Assembly: GCA_028825265.1 (NCBI GenBank)
Contig: JAPKAM010000019.1
Location: 1-32,105, forward strand
Origin: Planctomycetota bacterium
GTDB taxonomy: Bacteria; Planctomycetota; UBA8108; UBA1146
Length of the DNA stretch: 32,105 bases
Reading direction: 5' to 3'
Under the pieces are notes generated by a model. It saw only the letters and a list, made by a program, of their open reading frames with translations, ran no database searches and was not told the origin of the DNA. The position numbers and the translations under genes were made by a program. Of this stretch, positions 12,581 to 27,086 are shown one piece after another. The stretch's first letter is position 1. Each line of letters starts with the position of its first letter.

Positions 12581-14455
12581 ATGACCCACTCCATTTTCGG
12601 GACCAAGGCGATTCTTCGTCTCTTCTCCCTCTCATTCTTGGTGCTCGCCTTACTGCCCGCCACCCCCCTCTACTCCCAGGTGTACATGAAAAACCTGGGC
12701 ACTCGGGGAGCAGAGCTCTCTCTCGAGATGACGCCGACCAGTGATGGAAACTACGTCACAGTCGGTCCCGTCACTCGACCTCCCGGCGGACCACCTGGCT
12801 TTGACATCTACCTCAACAAGGTCAGCCCTGGCGGCAACCTGATCTGGACGCGTCAGATCCTCGAATCCAATGTGCAAGGATTCGGCAATGCGGTTCCTGT
12901 TTCGGTGACGGAAACATTCTCCGCTGGAGTTTCCAGTGGTTTTGCGGTGACTGGTATCGTCCGAAACGGAATTTCGGTCGACGATCCGGTGATGGTGGTC
13001 ACCACTAACGTCGTTGGGATTCCCACCGGCTACAGTTCCTATGGCGGACCACTACCCATCAATAATGTCGGCATCATCAGCGGGGCAGGCGTGAAAATCA
13101 TCCAGATCCCAGATGGGCGACTCGCCATCTGCGGATCGGTCACGCTCGCCAACTCTGCCGGTCAGCTTCCCTTCATCCTCGTGGTACACCAAGACCTCAC
13201 GCTGGATTTCATGCGGGTCTACGAGGATGGTGCGTTCAGTATCCCGGGAGCCAATCTGTTCGGATTCAATACCCAGGCTCATTTCGCCGACATCGAATAT
13301 GTCGAGGAGTTGATTGATCCCGATGGTACCGTTCTCCAGGAAGCGGGATTCATGGTGGTAGGATACACCGGTCCGATGAACTCGTACTTCTCTGAAATCC
13401 TGGTGATGCGCACCAGGATCGATGGGAATCCATCTCAGGTGACACTACATGGCCCGCAACAGGTGAAATCGATCGGGACCGCTCTCACCATCACCCAGGC
13501 GGGCAATGTCGAGGTCGCCGGGCTGGTCATCCCTTCGCCAAGCGCCACAGGCGCACCCGCGACCCCACCGTCGACTCTGGTCCTCAAACTGGAACCACAC
13601 TTTCTCGGAACCCTCGATCAGGACGAATACCATGGATTCATCGCCCACAGCGACATTCGAGAAGTGGGAGCGGGTGAGTTCATCCTGGCAGGTCGAGATG
13701 CAAACCCGGCGATCGGCCCTGGCGGCAACCTGATCTGGAACGGAGCTGTGCTTCGAATCAAGAACAGTGGAACCGTGGTCTTCGCCAATGGATACGGGAG
13801 TCTCAATGGTGTGGAGGTTTTCACCGACGTTCACGAGATGGCGGGAGGAGATCTGCTCTCCAGTGGAATCTCCACTGTCTGGTGTAGAGGCCCCATGGAC
13901 GAATACCTGAACAGAACTCTAGGCGATGGTTCCATCGTCGGTTGTAACTTTTACTCGCTCAACTACGCGCACGTCGAGCCAGTATACCCGGTTCGAGAGA
14001 CCTGGCTCCCATCGGAGTTACTCGACCTGGTCAGGGTCCACTCTCATGATCTCATCACCCCGGACACACGGATATTCTTGATCTGTCCGCTAATATTCGT
14101 TCCAAATATAGTATTTCCGATTCCCTGGGACTGGTTCAGGCGCGCGGACTTCACTCGTGATCTCCAGATCGACATCGGAGACGTCATCGCCAGTCTCGGC
14201 CGACTCTTCGGTGGTGGTCAGCCTTCTGTCCCCGAACAAGCGGCAGACTCCAACAGCGACGGAGCCCATGACGTCAGCGATGTCATCCACACCCTGACTT
14301 ACCTGTTCGGCGGTGGATCTCCTCCCGCGGCCCCCTTCGACGAGCCGGGCCCGGATCCAGAGAATGACCAGGGTAACATCTTCAACATCGATGAACTGCT
14401 CCAGTGGATCGATCAGTCGTTGCTGGCTGAAGGAGGAATCCTTGCGGAAGAGTGA
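12581..14455 (+). CDS. Secreted beta-propeller-like protein with degenerate C-terminal dockerin module
   Basis: A 624-residue exported protein: signal peptide of about 32 residues ending LYSQ, then a long repetitive region. Recurrent motifs such as MTPTSDGNYVTVG, GFAVTGIVRNG, IPDGRLAICGSV and GGNLIWTRQ/GGNLIWNGA look like blades of a delta-60 or PQQ-like beta-propeller. This is a structural guess; no enzyme motif is visible. A dockerin-type module occupies about 521-586: the second loop is intact (DSNSDGAHDVSDVIHTL) but the first (RDLQIDIGDVIASL) has lost the usual GDxNxDG ligands. About 40 residues follow it, unlike the other dockerin proteins here. AAGGGGG precedes the ATG. A strong terminator lies 41 bp downstream. 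Confidence 0.82.
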   Translation: MTHSIFGTKAILRLFSLSFLVLALLPATPLYSQVYMKNLGTRGAELSLEMTPTSDGNYVTVGPVTRPPGGPPGFDIYLNKVSPGGNLIWTRQILESNVQGFGNAVPVSVTETFSAGVSSGFAVTGIVRNGISVDDPVMVVTTNVVGIPTGYSSYGGPLPINNVGIISGAGVKIIQIPDGRLAICGSVTLANSAGQLPFILVVHQDLTLDFMRVYEDGAFSIPGANLFGFNTQAHFADIEYVEELIDPDGTVLQEAGFMVVGYTGPMNSYFSEILVMRTRIDGNPSQVTLHGPQQVKSIGTALTITQAGNVEVAGLVIPSPSATGAPATPPSTLVLKLEPHFLGTLDQDEYHGFIAHSDIREVGAGEFILAGRDANPAIGPGGNLIWNGAVLRIKNSGTVVFANGYGSLNGVEVFTDVHEMAGGDLLSSGISTVWCRGPMDEYLNRTLGDGSIVGCNFYSLNYAHVEPVYPVRETWLPSELLDLVRVHSHDLITPDTRIFLICPLIFVPNIVFPIPWDWFRRADFTRDLQIDIGDVIASLGRLFGGGQPSVPEQAADSNSDGAHDVSDVIHTLTYLFGGGSPPAAPFDEPGPDPENDQGNIFNIDELLQWIDQSLLAEGGILAEE

Positions 14456-14556: not shown

Positions 14557-14736
14557 CTAGATCCCAAGTAACTCGGGTAGTCGCTCGGTCATCCAGCGAT
14601 TCGCCTCGTCAGGGGAACGGGCAATAGCAATCACATCGAACTTCCCCGAACCGATCAGCGGGCCGACATTGTAGAGCAGGAACTGTCCGTCACCGCTGCC
14701 GGCATCGAACAAAGGACGCGGAGAAAACGAATGCAT
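14557..14736 (-). pseudogene. 3'-end remnant of an ATP-grasp gene
   Basis: A 59-codon reading frame whose residues 9-59 match the C-terminus of the ATP-grasp protein encoded at 18080-19507. Residues 9-39 (starting LFDAGSGDGQ, ending KFDVIAIA) come from the perfect 91-bp repeat. The rest, RSPDEANRWMTERLPELLGI, is homologous but diverged from the other copy's ADSTEADRLLTEVLPEILGV. The first eight residues are not related. It is therefore the displaced 3' tail of an ATP-grasp gene, cut off from its body, and no ribosome-binding site suggests translation. Its stop codon lies 20 bp from the terminator of the convergent gene. Confidence 0.8.
14621..14711. repeat. 91-bp direct repeat, left copy
   Basis: Identical over all 91 bases to 18144-18234, in the same orientation. 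Identity starts and stops abruptly: 14620 G against 18143 T, 14712 A against 18235... G on the other side. It encodes the conserved LFDAGSGDGQ...VIAIA segment of the ATP-grasp C-terminus within the remnant. Confidence 0.95.
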
Positions 14737-14794
14737 AAAAGCCCTCTGGAGAATTTCACGCTACCGATCTAACGCCTGCAATTTCCTCCCAAGT

Positions 14795-15238
14795 TTGAGC
14801 TGTTCAGAACTCATCGGGTCTACCGGGGTAGATTCAGAACTCTACAGGAGTGCAGAGAAGGACGTCAATCGGGTCCCGGACGACTATGACGAAATTCTAT
14901 CGGAAACCGGAGGACATGGTCTCTTGTTCGTTCTGGAACGAGAATACTCTTACCATCTTGAGCGCGGAGATCAGCTGGCATGGATCGCCAACTACTCTTG
15001 CTGTGGAATCCTCTGGCTATTACATCGGCGAAATTCCGAACCAAACTTCTTGGCCCCCAATTTCCTCCAAGCACTCATGGCGAAAAAACTGGCAAAGAGA
15101 ATCCTCAATGCTTTACAGAACCGCAGAATAGAGGCCGTCAACGCAAGATTCTCACAGAAACATCTTCTGAAAGAATTCATCAAATACATCGATCAACAAG
15201 GTGGACAACTACCGGCAGAATTGTTCGAGAAAGGTTAA
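14795..15238 (+). CDS. Hypothetical protein inside the putative insertion
   Basis: A 147-residue frame of no recognised family. It has a plausible protein composition: acidic N-terminal third (DDYDEILSETGG), a middle with LLFVLEREYSYHLERGDQLAW and CCGILWLLHRR, and a basic C-terminal half (MAKKLAKRILNALQNRR). No signal peptide or convincing membrane span is seen. The only available start is TTG at 14795, with no ribosome-binding site, and the frame stays open upstream through the left 91-bp repeat. It may therefore be a 5'-truncated gene carried in by the insertion, or not expressed. It is convergent with the 706-residue gene. Confidence 0.4.
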   Translation: MSCSELIGSTGVDSELYRSAEKDVNRVPDDYDEILSETGGHGLLFVLEREYSYHLERGDQLAWIANYSCCGILWLLHRRNSEPNFLAPNFLQALMAKKLAKRILNALQNRRIEAVNARFSQKHLLKEFIKYIDQQGGQLPAELFEKG

Positions 15239-15298
15239 GAAAAAACTGCCATCCTCTTCCAACAAGAGCCACCCAAACCACATCGATGAAAAACAGGA

Positions 15299-17419
15299 TC
15301 AGGGGCAGTTCGAAAAAGAATCACATCCACCGAGGATGCCTACACGAATACCACAGGAAGGAAAAGGAGCAGCAGGAGCCAGTCCACCCTGGAAAATGTA
15401 GTCCAGCAGGTAAACCACATCAGAAATATCTGCTGTGCCACTTCCATTCGTATCTAGAGAGTAAGGACAAACGGAAATCACATTCCCGAAGAGTACACTC
15501 AAGATTTGAACAGCATCGGTAATGTCAATCACCCCATCCTGGTTCCCGTCACCGCTAATAAATGGCACCCCTTGGCAACGATCCAGAATGCCATCCAGGT
15601 TTCCGTCTACAGCACCGGCAGCGAGATCGCAACTATCAGGAACACTGTTTCCATCACAATCGACATCACCTGAAGCGAGGTCACAACTGTCTGGAATTGC
15701 GTTGCCGTTGCAATCGAGAGCGGCCCCGGTAGCGATCTCACAAAAATCGAGAAGACCGTTCAGATTGCAGTCATCTTCAGAAATCTGACATTCGTCAGGG
15801 ATTCCATCACCATTACAATCCTCGGAAGTTCCAGATGCGAGATCATCAGGGTCAGGTACAGAGTTGCCGTTGCAATCCGGTGTCGGAAATGCGCCAAGAA
15901 TCAAAAACACCGTGGTCGTGCCGCTGATCTCATTACCGGTAATCAGGAGTGGCTGCCCCAGAGCATTATCCTCCGGCTTGACGTAGACGATGGATTCTAC
16001 CCCCAGATCACCAGCAGCCTGGCTCTCGATATTAGCGCCGAAATTTCGATTACTGAAGTATCCCAGCAACTGCGAAGAAGCAGGCGTGGTCACGTCGTAG
16101 GCGAAAATCCCCCCCTGCCTTTCCATACCAATGAAGGCCAGATTTCGGTCTCCGATTTGCGCAACAACCACCGCTTCGGGTTCACAACCCTTGTTGTCGG
16201 ACCGACCATCCGCAGAATTATTACTGGTGCTATTCGAGTTGAAATTTTCTGTTTCAAGAGCGGCGATGGTCACCGCAAACTCGTCGCCACTGTCGTAAAC
16301 CAGTTCGGCACCCGCACTCATATTAAAGATGGAGAAAGAGCGACTTCCGTAGCAATAGACCTCATCAAAATCACCATCTCCATCGAGATCCCCGTCGATG
16401 GTTGAAACGAAAAGACGACCCATATTGCCATTTTGTTGCAAAAAAGCGGCATTCGGAAAAGTGACCGGATCCAGATTCAGAGTTCTCGCCCTTCCGGCTT
16501 CGTTACGGGCATCTCCTTCATTAGCCGTGAGCAGATAATTCTGCCCGTTGACCTGATAAGTGACGGAGCTGTCCGGCATGTACATGCCGTGGACTGGCCA
16601 GTTACTGATGTTGATTCCTCCATCCGAATCGCTTCCGTCGAGACCGTTTCCGACGATTGAATGGTCCTTGGTACCCAGCGTATGAATCGAAGTTGCGGTC
16701 GCAGTAGGGATATCGATGACCACCACAGAATTCTGCTCCTGGCAAACCGCATAGGCGGTCGTGTTGTCGGGCGTCACGGCTATGTACTCAGGCTCAAGAT
16801 CTATGCTGGCCGACAAGCCCGGGAAGATTCGAACTCCTGCATTTCTCAGGGCTGCTTCCTGGCCGTTGAACACGGCAAAACTGACGGTCGAAACAAAACC
16901 AGTCTGAAGATTCACAATCGAAACTGAACCTGGTGGATTCGCGGCTCCTATCGGTTGTCCCTCGTTTGCAGTCAAGGCCAGATGATTGGATGTGACATAG
17001 AGCATATCGGGTAAGGCGCCAACCACATGAGTGGCTTGTAGCACGCCCGAGGTCGTGAAGACCTGAACCGAGCCTGGATTGGCCAAGTTTGCTGCAGGCA
17101 CGGCAGCCACCACAAAACTAGTGGTCCCATTATCCCAGATCCGTACATGACTGGCAGCGCCGATGGTGTTCACGAAACCGATCAGAGACAAAGTACCAGT
17201 CGGATTCAATTGTAGTATATCCAGATTTCCGGTGCTGGCATTGGTCACAAAAATCCGATCGCTTCGCGGATCGTGAGCGACGATTTCCGACGCACTCCCC
17301 TCAAAAACACCCGAGTGATGGGTGCCCAAAGGCACCAGATCCAGAGATCCTCCGGCAATAAGACACGAATTGAAGACACAAAAAACACCAAGAATGGAAG
17401 CTATTACACCAGGACGCAT
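15299..17419 (-). CDS. Choice-of-anchor-I family surface protein with calcium repeats and C-terminal dockerin
   Basis: A 706-residue exported protein. After a signal peptide (about 1-22) comes a seven-bladed-propeller-like choice-of-anchor-I region of about 490 residues. Its hallmarks are SASEIVAHDPRSDRIFVTNA, SLTANEG-type motifs (LALTANEGQP, YLLTANEGDARNE), SIDLEPEYIAVTPD and LGTKDHSIVGNGLDGSDSDGGI. Residues 515-619 are five or six copies of a Cys-containing calcium-binding repeat (DCNGNxIPDxCDLASG). Residues 620-706 are a dockerin-type module (GDGNQDGVIDITDA, DTNGSGTADISDV, closing PFPSCG). No catalytic residues can be assigned; a structural or adhesive surface role is inference. GAGGG precedes the ATG at moderate distance. 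It lies inside the putative insertion, downstream of the SRPBCC gene with a 196-bp A/T-rich gap. Confidence 0.88.
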   Translation of the reverse strand: MRPGVIASILGVFCVFNSCLIAGGSLDLVPLGTHHSGVFEGSASEIVAHDPRSDRIFVTNASTGNLDILQLNPTGTLSLIGFVNTIGAASHVRIWDNGTTSFVVAAVPAANLANPGSVQVFTTSGVLQATHVVGALPDMLYVTSNHLALTANEGQPIGAANPPGSVSIVNLQTGFVSTVSFAVFNGQEAALRNAGVRIFPGLSASIDLEPEYIAVTPDNTTAYAVCQEQNSVVVIDIPTATATSIHTLGTKDHSIVGNGLDGSDSDGGINISNWPVHGMYMPDSSVTYQVNGQNYLLTANEGDARNEAGRARTLNLDPVTFPNAAFLQQNGNMGRLFVSTIDGDLDGDGDFDEVYCYGSRSFSIFNMSAGAELVYDSGDEFAVTIAALETENFNSNSTSNNSADGRSDNKGCEPEAVVVAQIGDRNLAFIGMERQGGIFAYDVTTPASSQLLGYFSNRNFGANIESQAAGDLGVESIVYVKPEDNALGQPLLITGNEISGTTTVFLILGAFPTPDCNGNSVPDPDDLASGTSEDCNGDGIPDECQISEDDCNLNGLLDFCEIATGAALDCNGNAIPDSCDLASGDVDCDGNSVPDSCDLAAGAVDGNLDGILDRCQGVPFISGDGNQDGVIDITDAVQILSVLFGNVISVCPYSLDTNGSGTADISDVVYLLDYIFQGGLAPAAPFPSCGIRVGILGGCDSFSNCP
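15563..15877 (-). repeat. Tandem Cys/Asp calcium-binding repeats in the surface protein gene
   Basis: This coding stretch holds five to six imperfect units of roughly 16-19 codons with the pattern DCxGNxxPDxCxLAxG, resembling thrombospondin type-3 or EF-hand-like repeats. The units between about 15570 and 15720 are the most alike at the DNA level, suggesting recent duplication. Confidence 0.75.
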
Positions 17420-17615
17420 CGGTATATCCCTCGCTGAATAGAGAAGACCTATAACGCTAAATTTTTCAAATACTCGGCCTGGTTATACAATCGGAACTGC
17501 GCGTCTCACTACAGAAACTCATCGTCAAAAATTCCCAAAATAGATCATCGTTTCCATGAATAGAAGGCAACAAACTATCATTACTTTCCAGTACCAGACA
17601 CTTCAAAAACGCTGT

Positions 17616-18056
17616 TCATTGCATTATGGGGTAAGCAATGATTCGTTTCAATTTTGATTTCACGTACAGTGCATGTGCCAGAGTTCCCAACGGCCCCAGG
17701 GGAAGCGCGGAAGTCACGAGATGAAAAAAACGAATGTCCTCCGGTTGTTCGGTTATTTCGTGATAATGATGCAAGTATCGGTAGGGACCGACATGTTGGA
17801 CATCGAAAAAGGAACGTCTCTCCTGAATATTCTGGATTTCTGAAAGCCAAGTTTGCCCCCCCAGGAAAGGTATTGATATCTGATACTTGATGAGAAGCCC
17901 GTCGAATATTCCAGCAGGTATATCGCTAACGATGGGAAAAGACAAATTCTCAGGAGTGCTATGATCTAGATTCTTCGGCGTGCTGATAAATTCCCATGCC
18001 CTGTCAAGATCTGTGGGAATCACCTGTTCGCGTACAAGATGGGAAATTCTGGACAT
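17616..18056 (-). CDS. SRPBCC (START-like) ligand-binding protein
   Basis: A 146-residue member of the SRPBCC hydrophobic-ligand-binding superfamily, in the subgroup often labelled cyclase/dehydrase-like. Diagnostic features are the opening VIPTDLDRAWEFISTPKNLD, the central LSFPIVSD...GLLIKYQISIPFLG, a Q-x-W-x-SEI strand and GPYRYLHHYHEI. The family ending ALPLGPLGTLAHALYVKSKLKRI completes the match. The ligand is unknown. GGGAG lies six bases before the ATG at 18056. It starts 23 bp after the ATP-grasp stop on the same strand, so the two are probably one transcript. Because it lies inside the putative insertion, that pairing may have been brought in together with the replacement gene end. 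Confidence 0.85.
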   Translation of the reverse strand: MSRISHLVREQVIPTDLDRAWEFISTPKNLDHSTPENLSFPIVSDIPAGIFDGLLIKYQISIPFLGGQTWLSEIQNIQERRSFFDVQHVGPYRYLHHYHEITEQPEDIRFFHLVTSALPLGPLGTLAHALYVKSKLKRIIAYPIMQ

Positions 18057-18079
18057 TGCGATCTCCCGAAAAGTAGTTT

Positions 18080-19507
18080 TTAAACCCCCAGAATCTCAGG
18101 AAGGACCTCTGTCAGCAACCGATCCGCTTCAGTTGAATCTGCTGCAATAGCAATCACATCGAACTTCCCCGAACCGATCAGCGGGCCGACATTGTAGAGC
18201 AGGAACTGTCCGTCACCGCTGCCGGCATCGAACAGGTGACTACCGATCCGCTGGCAGATTTCCGTGAAGGAAACTCCGATCAAATCTTGATGGACGAAAT
18301 CCTGTGCTCTGTACGCTGGCCGCTGGCCGGGAATCACTCGATCGACCAGATGCATCGGAGTGCTAGTTCCTCCCCAGCGTCCGTTGCATTCAGTGATCTT
18401 CAGCTGCGGGTCTCGCTCCAGATCGCCGACCACCAGGTGATCGAAGGAACAGCGACCGACGTACCCGAGTTGTTGTAATGCGAAGGCAATGGCGAACGAT
18501 TGCCGCTCCAGCCCCTGATTGATCTCATCTGGCAAGGTCGAGGGGTGGCTCCCGATAAACAGTTTCTCCTCACCGGCCAGGATCTGTTCATAGACTCCAT
18601 CGAGCCGCGGCAGTTCGCTCCCCTTGGGCGGGATCCACCACTGGGTGGAGGGCGAGAGATCGGTCTCTTCCCAGACACAGGCGAGCACCTCTTCCCCTGC
18701 AGGCCAGTCCATCGACAACAATGACTCTTCGACCACTTTTTGCAGTGCCGCTTCATCGAGATGCTGCAACGGCTCCACCAGCAGCAGGCGATTTCCCATG
18801 GCAGAAGCGCAGCGGGTTCTCTTGATCGCAACTCGTTTGACCCCGGAAAACATCTGGCGCAGATGCTTCGTCAGGGTCGGAACATCGGTGGCTGTGCGGG
18901 TGAGCACCAGAGCATCCTCCCCCAGTACTGCAGCGACCAGTTCAGAGAAATGAGCCTTGTCATTAGCGATCCAGGTCACCACAGGAGGAGGGGCGATCAC
19001 TTGCACCGGCACTTTCGCCTCGCGGTGGATACGTGCGGCGAGTTCCCACGAGTCCTCGATCCCCATGTACGGCTCGATCAATAGTCCCTGACCACTGCGT
19101 GCGCAATCCACCAAGGTCGAGAAGGCCGGTGGAGCCCAGCAACCGCTCGATACTTTCAAAGGTCCATCGGGAGGGAAGGCAAAGATGTGCCGGGGAGAGC
19201 CGAGGAGCAGTTGATCGCGGCAGTACTCCTCGTATCCGGCGGCCGGTTCGGTGACGGTGGCGAACAGGTCACCATCGCCACAGCGTAATCGGGCCCGGTG
19301 CTGGTACTGGTCCACCCCATCGATGCCATCGAGGAAGGGGATCCCCGACACGTCATCGAGGTGCAACACCGGCCAGCGACGATCACCTTGCCAGCGATGC
19401 GCATCCAAGTGGCTCTGAACCGTCGCTAAGGCATGCTTCTCGGAGAAGGCTGCTGCGGCGATTTCCATCGAGCTCAGGTCCGTTCGCTGCGGATCCCCCA
19501 ACGACAT
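18080..19507 (-). CDS. ATP-grasp family protein (pre-ATP-grasp/PGM1-like)
   Basis: A 475-residue probable ligase of the ATP-grasp superfamily; such enzymes join a carboxylate to an amine or thiol using ATP. The C-terminal half holds GYVGRCSFDHLV (349-360) and the metal/ATP site ITECNGRWGGTSTP (371-384), close to the E-x-N-x-R-x-GG-T-x-x-P of peptide-ligase relatives such as PGM1. The N-terminal half has SPRHIFAF and IANDKAHFSEL typical of the pre-ATP-grasp domain. AGGAGG lies seven bases before the ATG. Residues 425-455 are encoded by a 91-bp sequence repeated at 14621-14711, and the last 20 residues differ from those of the displaced copy. The present gene may therefore be a chimera with an imported 3' end. 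Substrate unknown. Confidence 0.85.
   Translation of the reverse strand: MSLGDPQRTDLSSMEIAAAAFSEKHALATVQSHLDAHRWQGDRRWPVLHLDDVSGIPFLDGIDGVDQYQHRARLRCGDGDLFATVTEPAAGYEEYCRDQLLLGSPRHIFAFPPDGPLKVSSGCWAPPAFSTLVDCARSGQGLLIEPYMGIEDSWELAARIHREAKVPVQVIAPPPVVTWIANDKAHFSELVAAVLGEDALVLTRTATDVPTLTKHLRQMFSGVKRVAIKRTRCASAMGNRLLLVEPLQHLDEAALQKVVEESLLSMDWPAGEEVLACVWEETDLSPSTQWWIPPKGSELPRLDGVYEQILAGEEKLFIGSHPSTLPDEINQGLERQSFAIAFALQQLGYVGRCSFDHLVVGDLERDPQLKITECNGRWGGTSTPMHLVDRVIPGQRPAYRAQDFVHQDLIGVSFTEICQRIGSHLFDAGSGDGQFLLYNVGPLIGSGKFDVIAIAADSTEADRLLTEVLPEILGV
18144..18234. repeat. 91-bp direct repeat, right copy
   Basis: Identical to 14621-14711 and in the same orientation, 3,432 bp apart. It covers codons 425-455 of the intact ATP-grasp gene. 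Confidence 0.95.
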
Positions 19508-26885: not shown

Positions 26886-26892
26886 GCCGGTC

Positions 26893-26925
26893 GATGCGAG
26901 TTCCACGATGCGAGTTCCACGATGC
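26893..26925. repeat. 14-bp tandem repeat, 2.4 copies
   Basis: GATGCGAGTTCCAC occurs at 26893-26906 and 26907-26920, followed by a partial copy GATGC. The copies are identical. It begins 8 bp after the PiT stop codon. Confidence 0.9.
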
Positions 26926-26986
26926 TAAAAGTCCGCTTCGATTCAGACCGGCTCGCGCACTCGTTTGCAGTTCCCCGGCGGCCTCA

Positions 26987-27014
26987 CGGCATCGATCTGT
27001 CGGCATCGATCTAT
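26987..27014. repeat. 14-bp tandem repeat, 2 copies
   Basis: CGGCATCGATCTGT and CGGCATCGATCTAT are adjacent and differ at one position. The array runs directly into the 15-bp array at 27015. Confidence 0.88.
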
Positions 27015-27086
27015 CGGCCCACTGTCTAACGGCCCAGTGTCTAACGGCCCAGTGTCTAGCCGCCCAGTGTCTAGCCGCCCAGTGCC
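27015..27086. repeat. 15-bp tandem repeat, 4.8 copies
   Basis: Units CGGCCCACTGTCTAA, CGGCCCAGTGTCTAA, CGGCCCAGTGTCTAG and CCGCCCAGTGTCTAG, then a partial CCGCCCAGTGCC, lie head to tail. Neighbouring units differ by one or two bases, with the variants ordered along the array, as expected from stepwise duplication. Confidence 0.93.

Follow-up and report, generated by a model that had tools for sequence, protein, structure and literature searches.

The 3' end of an ATP-grasp-type gene in this planctomycete contig is foreign, and the native 3' end of the gene lies on the far side of a 3432-bp inserted segment. The gene is made whole by a replacement tail that came with the insert, while the native tail remains beside the flanking gene that it adjoins in relatives lacking the segment. 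Comparison with related genomes confirmed both the insertion and the tail replacement. As to how the layout arose, we favor, at a probability of roughly 0.5, 3'-end displacement by incoming DNA through homologous recombination at the gene and an illegitimate joint inside a cargo gene. This kind of event is known; the locus would be a natural example of it at a non-toxin gene. Coordinates refer to the window, the whole 32,105-nt stretch of DNA that was analysed. The genome of this contig is G000; G001, G002, G003 and G004 belong to the same genus and G006 to another genus. The features of the locus are as follows.

12581-14455, plus strand: native left-flank gene (624 aa), adjoining the ATP-grasp-type gene in empty-site relatives
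14557-14620, minus strand: tail B, the displaced native 3' end, beside the native left flank in conserved gene order; 47/64 bases identical to the native tail of G003 and G001
14621-14711, minus strand: left 91-bp core, an exact repeat abutting the broken cargo gene
14712-15238, plus strand: 5'-truncated 3' remnant of a longer cargo gene (about 175 codons, including the ORF at 14795-15238), recognized by homology to a G004 ORF
15299-17419, minus strand: cargo gene for a choice-of-anchor I protein (PF22494, E 2e-98; NF038117)
17616-18056, minus strand: cargo ORF of 146 aa with no Pfam or NCBIfam match
18080-18143, minus strand: tail A, the foreign 3' end of the gene; 35/64 bases identical to tail B, its G004 counterpart resembling another genus (54/64 to G006)
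18144-18234, minus strand: right 91-bp core, an exact repeat inside the ATP-grasp-type gene
18080-19507, minus strand: intact ATP-grasp-type (PreATP-grasp/PGM1-like) gene with the foreign tail, 475 codons (475 aa)

The two 91-bp cores (14621-14711 and 18144-18234) are, as the sequence-only reading of this DNA had reported, exactly identical direct repeats; their start-to-start distance is 3523 bp. They are by far the longest exact repeat in the window (runner-up 24 bp), the sequence has only these two copies in G000, and no other exact repeat above 55 bp was found in 80 G000 contigs (up to 20 kb each) plus the window, 1.06 Mb altogether. Within the 91-bp core, dyad symmetry or inverted repeats did not rise above chance. 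The GC content of the segment is about 44-53%, compared to mostly 54-62% around it. That reading had also placed the right copy within an intact gene and the left copy at the head of a diverged homologous tail, and both placements were borne out. Elsewhere in the window, short exact repeats of 20-23 bp are clustered at 26892-27085 with a spacing of 14-15 bp, and positions 1-53 resemble the 3' part of a tRNA gene truncated where the contig begins; ARAGORN called no tRNA in the window.

The ATP-grasp-type gene is a single full-length copy with 84-85% amino acid identity in three genus members, and is distributed over a small set of Planctomycetota plus genomes labelled Myxococcales and others. 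The PreAtp-grasp match of the 475-aa protein is sub-threshold, as is that of a distant homologue, which falls slightly short of the same cut-off. The label 'ATP-grasp' given in the sequence-only reading is therefore kept here as a type and not as a family assignment, resting as it does on that sub-threshold match plus an E-x-N-x-R-like motif.

In G001, G002, G003 and G006, the gene is followed by a single tail and then by the left-flank gene. The tail of G001 and G003 is of the tail B type (47/64 bases). The segment had been read as an insertion, with the prediction that relatives lacking it would show one tail; these four empty sites, each with a native-type tail followed by the left flank, support the former and agree with the latter. 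We conclude that the segment is an insertion and that tail A, the new tail of the G000 gene, is foreign. A second occupied site was found in G004 (DUAN01, UWMA-0276), which is sister to G003 (about 96% identity over the gene). Two of the five genus members (G000 and G004) are thus occupied, with different cargo. On G004 contig C205, the gene is followed by a different tail and other genes; the native left flank is on contig C133, which runs through tail B into 88 bp that match the C205 core exactly and stops only 4 bp past the G000 repeat edge. C133 is either the far end of the same G004 island or an empty-site strain in the same sample, and extension of the island via contig-end overlaps found no neighbor. 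In both occupied genomes the tail of the gene is unlike the tails of the relatives and the native tail is still beside the left flank; in G000 this old 3' end (14557-14620) lies downstream of its replacement.

The switch from host to foreign sequence in G004 was located with diagnostic sites (host = G003 versus G006) to within 2 bp, about 72 nt before the gene end. Nearly all sites are host-type down to 73 nt from the end, and from 71 on the gene copy is mostly G006-like. The orphan copy of the tail is host-type throughout, and the tail of the gene copy matches G006 at 54/64 bases but the G000 tail A at only 42/64. The G004 core is host-type in both copies and only the tail is foreign; in G000 the core copies are identical, with no foreign half visible. 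Cores are identical within each of these two genomes and different between them. The switch points in G000 and G004 are no more than about 8 bp apart in a gene of 1.4 kb. This near-coincidence mildly favors a preferred site, but both switches could also have been drawn there by local conservation of the SGKFDVI-coding stretch. Apart from the one in G004, no orphan tails were found in Planctomycetota (11 other genomes having the gene), nor in viral (IMG/VR), phage and plasmid collections. A candidate orphan tail in G045 was discarded; the gene there is cut by the contig end.

The segment contains the 146-aa ORF, the choice-of-anchor-I gene and the broken gene. The choice-of-anchor-I protein is the only product in it with a curated family match, which backs the original call (PF22494, NF038117), and homologues of its gene, 65-66% identical at the DNA level, occur in a different genus of the family. 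The call of the 146-aa ORF as SRPBCC found no support in Pfam or NCBIfam. This ORF starts 23 bp past the ATP-grasp-type stop in the same direction, and the two may be co-transcribed. What had been taken for an orphan ORF (14795-15238) proved to be what is left, in frame, of the 3' part of a cargo gene whose G004 version is longer: the remnant at 14712-15238 has 62% amino acid identity to residues 411-585 of a 586-aa G004 ORF (dN 0.27, dS 1.11), and its reading frame is otherwise open. The homology starts at the left repeat edge, the gene being broken mid-frame at the core. Relatives of the broken gene elsewhere in the phylum are open frames of 828-1017 aa (homologues L159, L160, L161, L162 and L163, an unassigned family in diverse Planctomycetota), and no viral relatives of the G004 cargo gene were found in IMG/VR.

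In G004, the long cargo gene adjoins a gene for a DUF2357 protein, directly beside the tail of the ATP-grasp-type gene (L016:2-1183 and L016:1183-3837 on G004:C205; the long protein is broken by a 10-N gap and frame changes). The pair may be a CoCoNuT/McrC-type defence pair. The likeness to such systems (PMC11090510) concerns the G004 cargo only and consists of a DUF2357 protein beside a long cargo gene; in contrast to them, the G004 partner, with its 828-1017-aa relatives, matches no Pfam or PDB family, and PADLOC returned no defence-system match for it or otherwise. An Hsp70-like (CnuD) identity of the cargo gene was suspected and not confirmed by any Pfam or PDB family. No variable toxin C-terminus or immunity genes were found; the tails are homologous and conserved.

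Under displacement, the donor molecule would come from the same or a very close species in which the foreign-tail allele was already present, and the identity of the cores would follow from this origin. The incoming molecule would have recombined homologously within the ATP-grasp-type gene, and its other end, broken in the cargo gene, would have been joined illegitimately to the recipient gene about 155 bp before the gene end. Such a joint could be of the homology-facilitated illegitimate type, or could result from a single crossover if the incoming molecule had re-circularised after its anchor was shortened to 91 bp and the tail. Since tail A is a complete homologous tail, the gene would remain whole; tail B would be a relic lacking its own 5' part. 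Crossing over between the two cores could still remove the segment precisely. The anatomy of G000 is explained if donor and recipient were conspecific and differed in the tail allele. The sequence-only reading had argued against a single crossover on the grounds that it should leave the 5' part of the incoming gene before the left repeat; that argument fails if the incoming anchor was truncated, the remaining 91 bp being what is left of that 5' part (PMC3240628).

Several observations fit displacement. Among them are the single-tail empty sites of four relatives, the sharp switch in G004, cores that agree within a genome but not between genomes, and the lack of a recombinase gene in the segment and of dyad symmetry in the core. 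The switch lies within the conserved 3' region of the gene, as befits a homologous joint, and the second joint is non-homologous, the cargo gene being cut exactly at the core with its frame otherwise intact, as expected of a broken fragment end. No deletion of recipient DNA is visible; native tail and flank are retained, which fits the duplication form (PMC3240628). DNA uptake is conceivable, since a ComEC homologue is present in 4/4 genomes tested. Other points weaken the displacement reading. By our estimate, random crossover would place two switches as close together as about 8 bp in only 1-10% of cases, the G004 contig with tail B ends 4 bp beyond the G000 repeat edge, and the classic form of the reaction usually deletes recipient DNA, whereas nothing is visibly lost here. 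The proposed conspecific donor allele was not found, which also counts against it.

The main rival to the homologous-recombination reading, possible but distinctly less probable, is a site-specific integrative element that targets the gene 3' end and carries a replacement tail, like prophage e14 at icd; the window would then hold a decayed non-autonomous copy, its left part lost and its integrase in trans or gone. The occupation of two of five genus members with different cargo, the foreign tails in both and the switch points within about 8 bp of each other would all suit such an element, and for the same occupancy and spacing mobility is still conceivable. The second edge may coincide as well, given where the G004 contig ends, although a contig end may be an assembly matter; and e14 itself splits off 163 bp of icd and provides a substitute end (PMC6379469). 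As the sequence-only reading had stated, however, the segment holds no integrase or other recombinase gene. The search of G000 (90% complete) yielded no serine recombinase and two Xer-like tyrosine recombinases, both encoded on other contigs. In G004 (where one of the two is apparently split across contigs and the unclosed island may yet hold an integrase) the same pair of Xer-like proteins and again no serine recombinase were found, as in G001 and G003 with their empty sites. If a foreign element had recombined conservatively at a specific site, each att site should be foreign to one side of the crossover point, yet neither G004 core copy is part-foreign. An element end normally does not fall mid-gene, and the broken gene at the left end of the segment therefore argues that this is not an element end. 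The core has no dyad symmetry, and the orphan tails were absent from the mobile-element collections and the 11 other genomes. The earlier inference of an attachment site found no support in these results, and a dedicated attachment-site element is the less probable reading. We consider it improbable, too, that a family of non-autonomous elements in this Planctomycetota lineage integrates at a defined 84-91-bp target at the ATP-grasp gene 3' end; such elements would duplicate host sequence, use a recombination enzyme in trans or an unrecognised one, and carry variable cargo including the DUF2357 gene pair.

De Bruijn contigs can share exactly k bases at branch points, which could mimic such a layout. 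Among the 80 G000 contigs, four pairs of ends share exactly 55 bp, one pair 29 and one 21; none share 91. A k-mer overlap artefact was ruled out as the source of the 91-bp repeat, since contig ends overlap by 55 bp (K = 55) and a branch chimera would give a 55-bp repeat. It is unlikely, if less remote than an ancestral insertion, that foreign-tail and native-allele strains coexist and were joined by the assembler, or that the true forms are an empty chromosome and a 3523-bp circle (14621-18143). The G000 assembly is a draft (200 contigs, 4.27% contamination), the repeat exceeds K, which also allows the graph alone to be read as empty site plus circle, the two tails of G004 are on separate contigs, and the cargo gene breaks exactly at the repeat. 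Set against this, joining at a branch would make a repeat of about 55 bp and not 91, the contig contains no N run, and ordinary contig joining does not make the cargo-core junction unless it is present in reads. Least probable, and very unlikely in our view, is a single ancestral insertion in the genus that persists in G000 and G004 and was precisely removed from G001 and from G003, gene conversion having made the two cores alike. The common tail position and the homologous cargo gene (62% amino acid identity) of the two islands speak for it, but the G004 tail A is far closer to G006 than to the G000 tail A, and two independent losses plus concerted evolution of an 84-91-bp stretch would be needed.

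Displacement as favored here has counterparts in described systems. In homology-facilitated illegitimate recombination and truncated-anchor crossover (PMC3240628), one homologous joint is likewise combined with one illegitimate joint in non-homologous DNA, and a shortened stretch of anchor is duplicated. In its classic form, this reaction usually costs the recipient some DNA, and the joint has 3-10 bp of microhomology, for which the G004 homologue of the broken cargo gene is too diverged to serve as a reference here. In one E. coli system, with a degraded anchor and a re-circularised molecule, shortened-anchor duplications were the commonest product (56/60 recombinants with duplications, those sequenced duplicating 109-950 bp of anchor; PMC3240628). 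The present case differs in being a natural event inferred from a draft genome, and its 91 bp are slightly below the published range. In C-terminal displacement at Rhs/CdiA and T6SS loci (PMC5361080, PMC3150448), a new 3' end similarly comes with downstream genes and the old 3' end or gene is orphaned behind it; at Vibrio T6SS effector loci, a new end plus genes were inserted ahead of the old genes, which stayed on downstream, an outcome ascribed by the authors to the same recombination (PMC5361080). Here, in contrast, the exchanged part is the conserved homologous tail of an enzyme gene and not a variable toxin domain, and no immunity genes accompany it. Prophage e14 (PMC6379469) shares the insertion at a protein gene 3' end and the element-borne diverged replacement tail; unlike e14, the present locus has no integrase and no recognisable left element end, and the G004 core is host-type in both copies.

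A layout of this kind can readily pass for an integrase attachment site. If the element alternative were true, uncultured Planctomycetota would have in this gene end a new hotspot of insertion, whose cargo may include defence genes. The displacement reading suggests that the end of an ordinary enzyme gene, besides those of toxin genes, can anchor the entry of foreign DNA and a swap of the 3' end.
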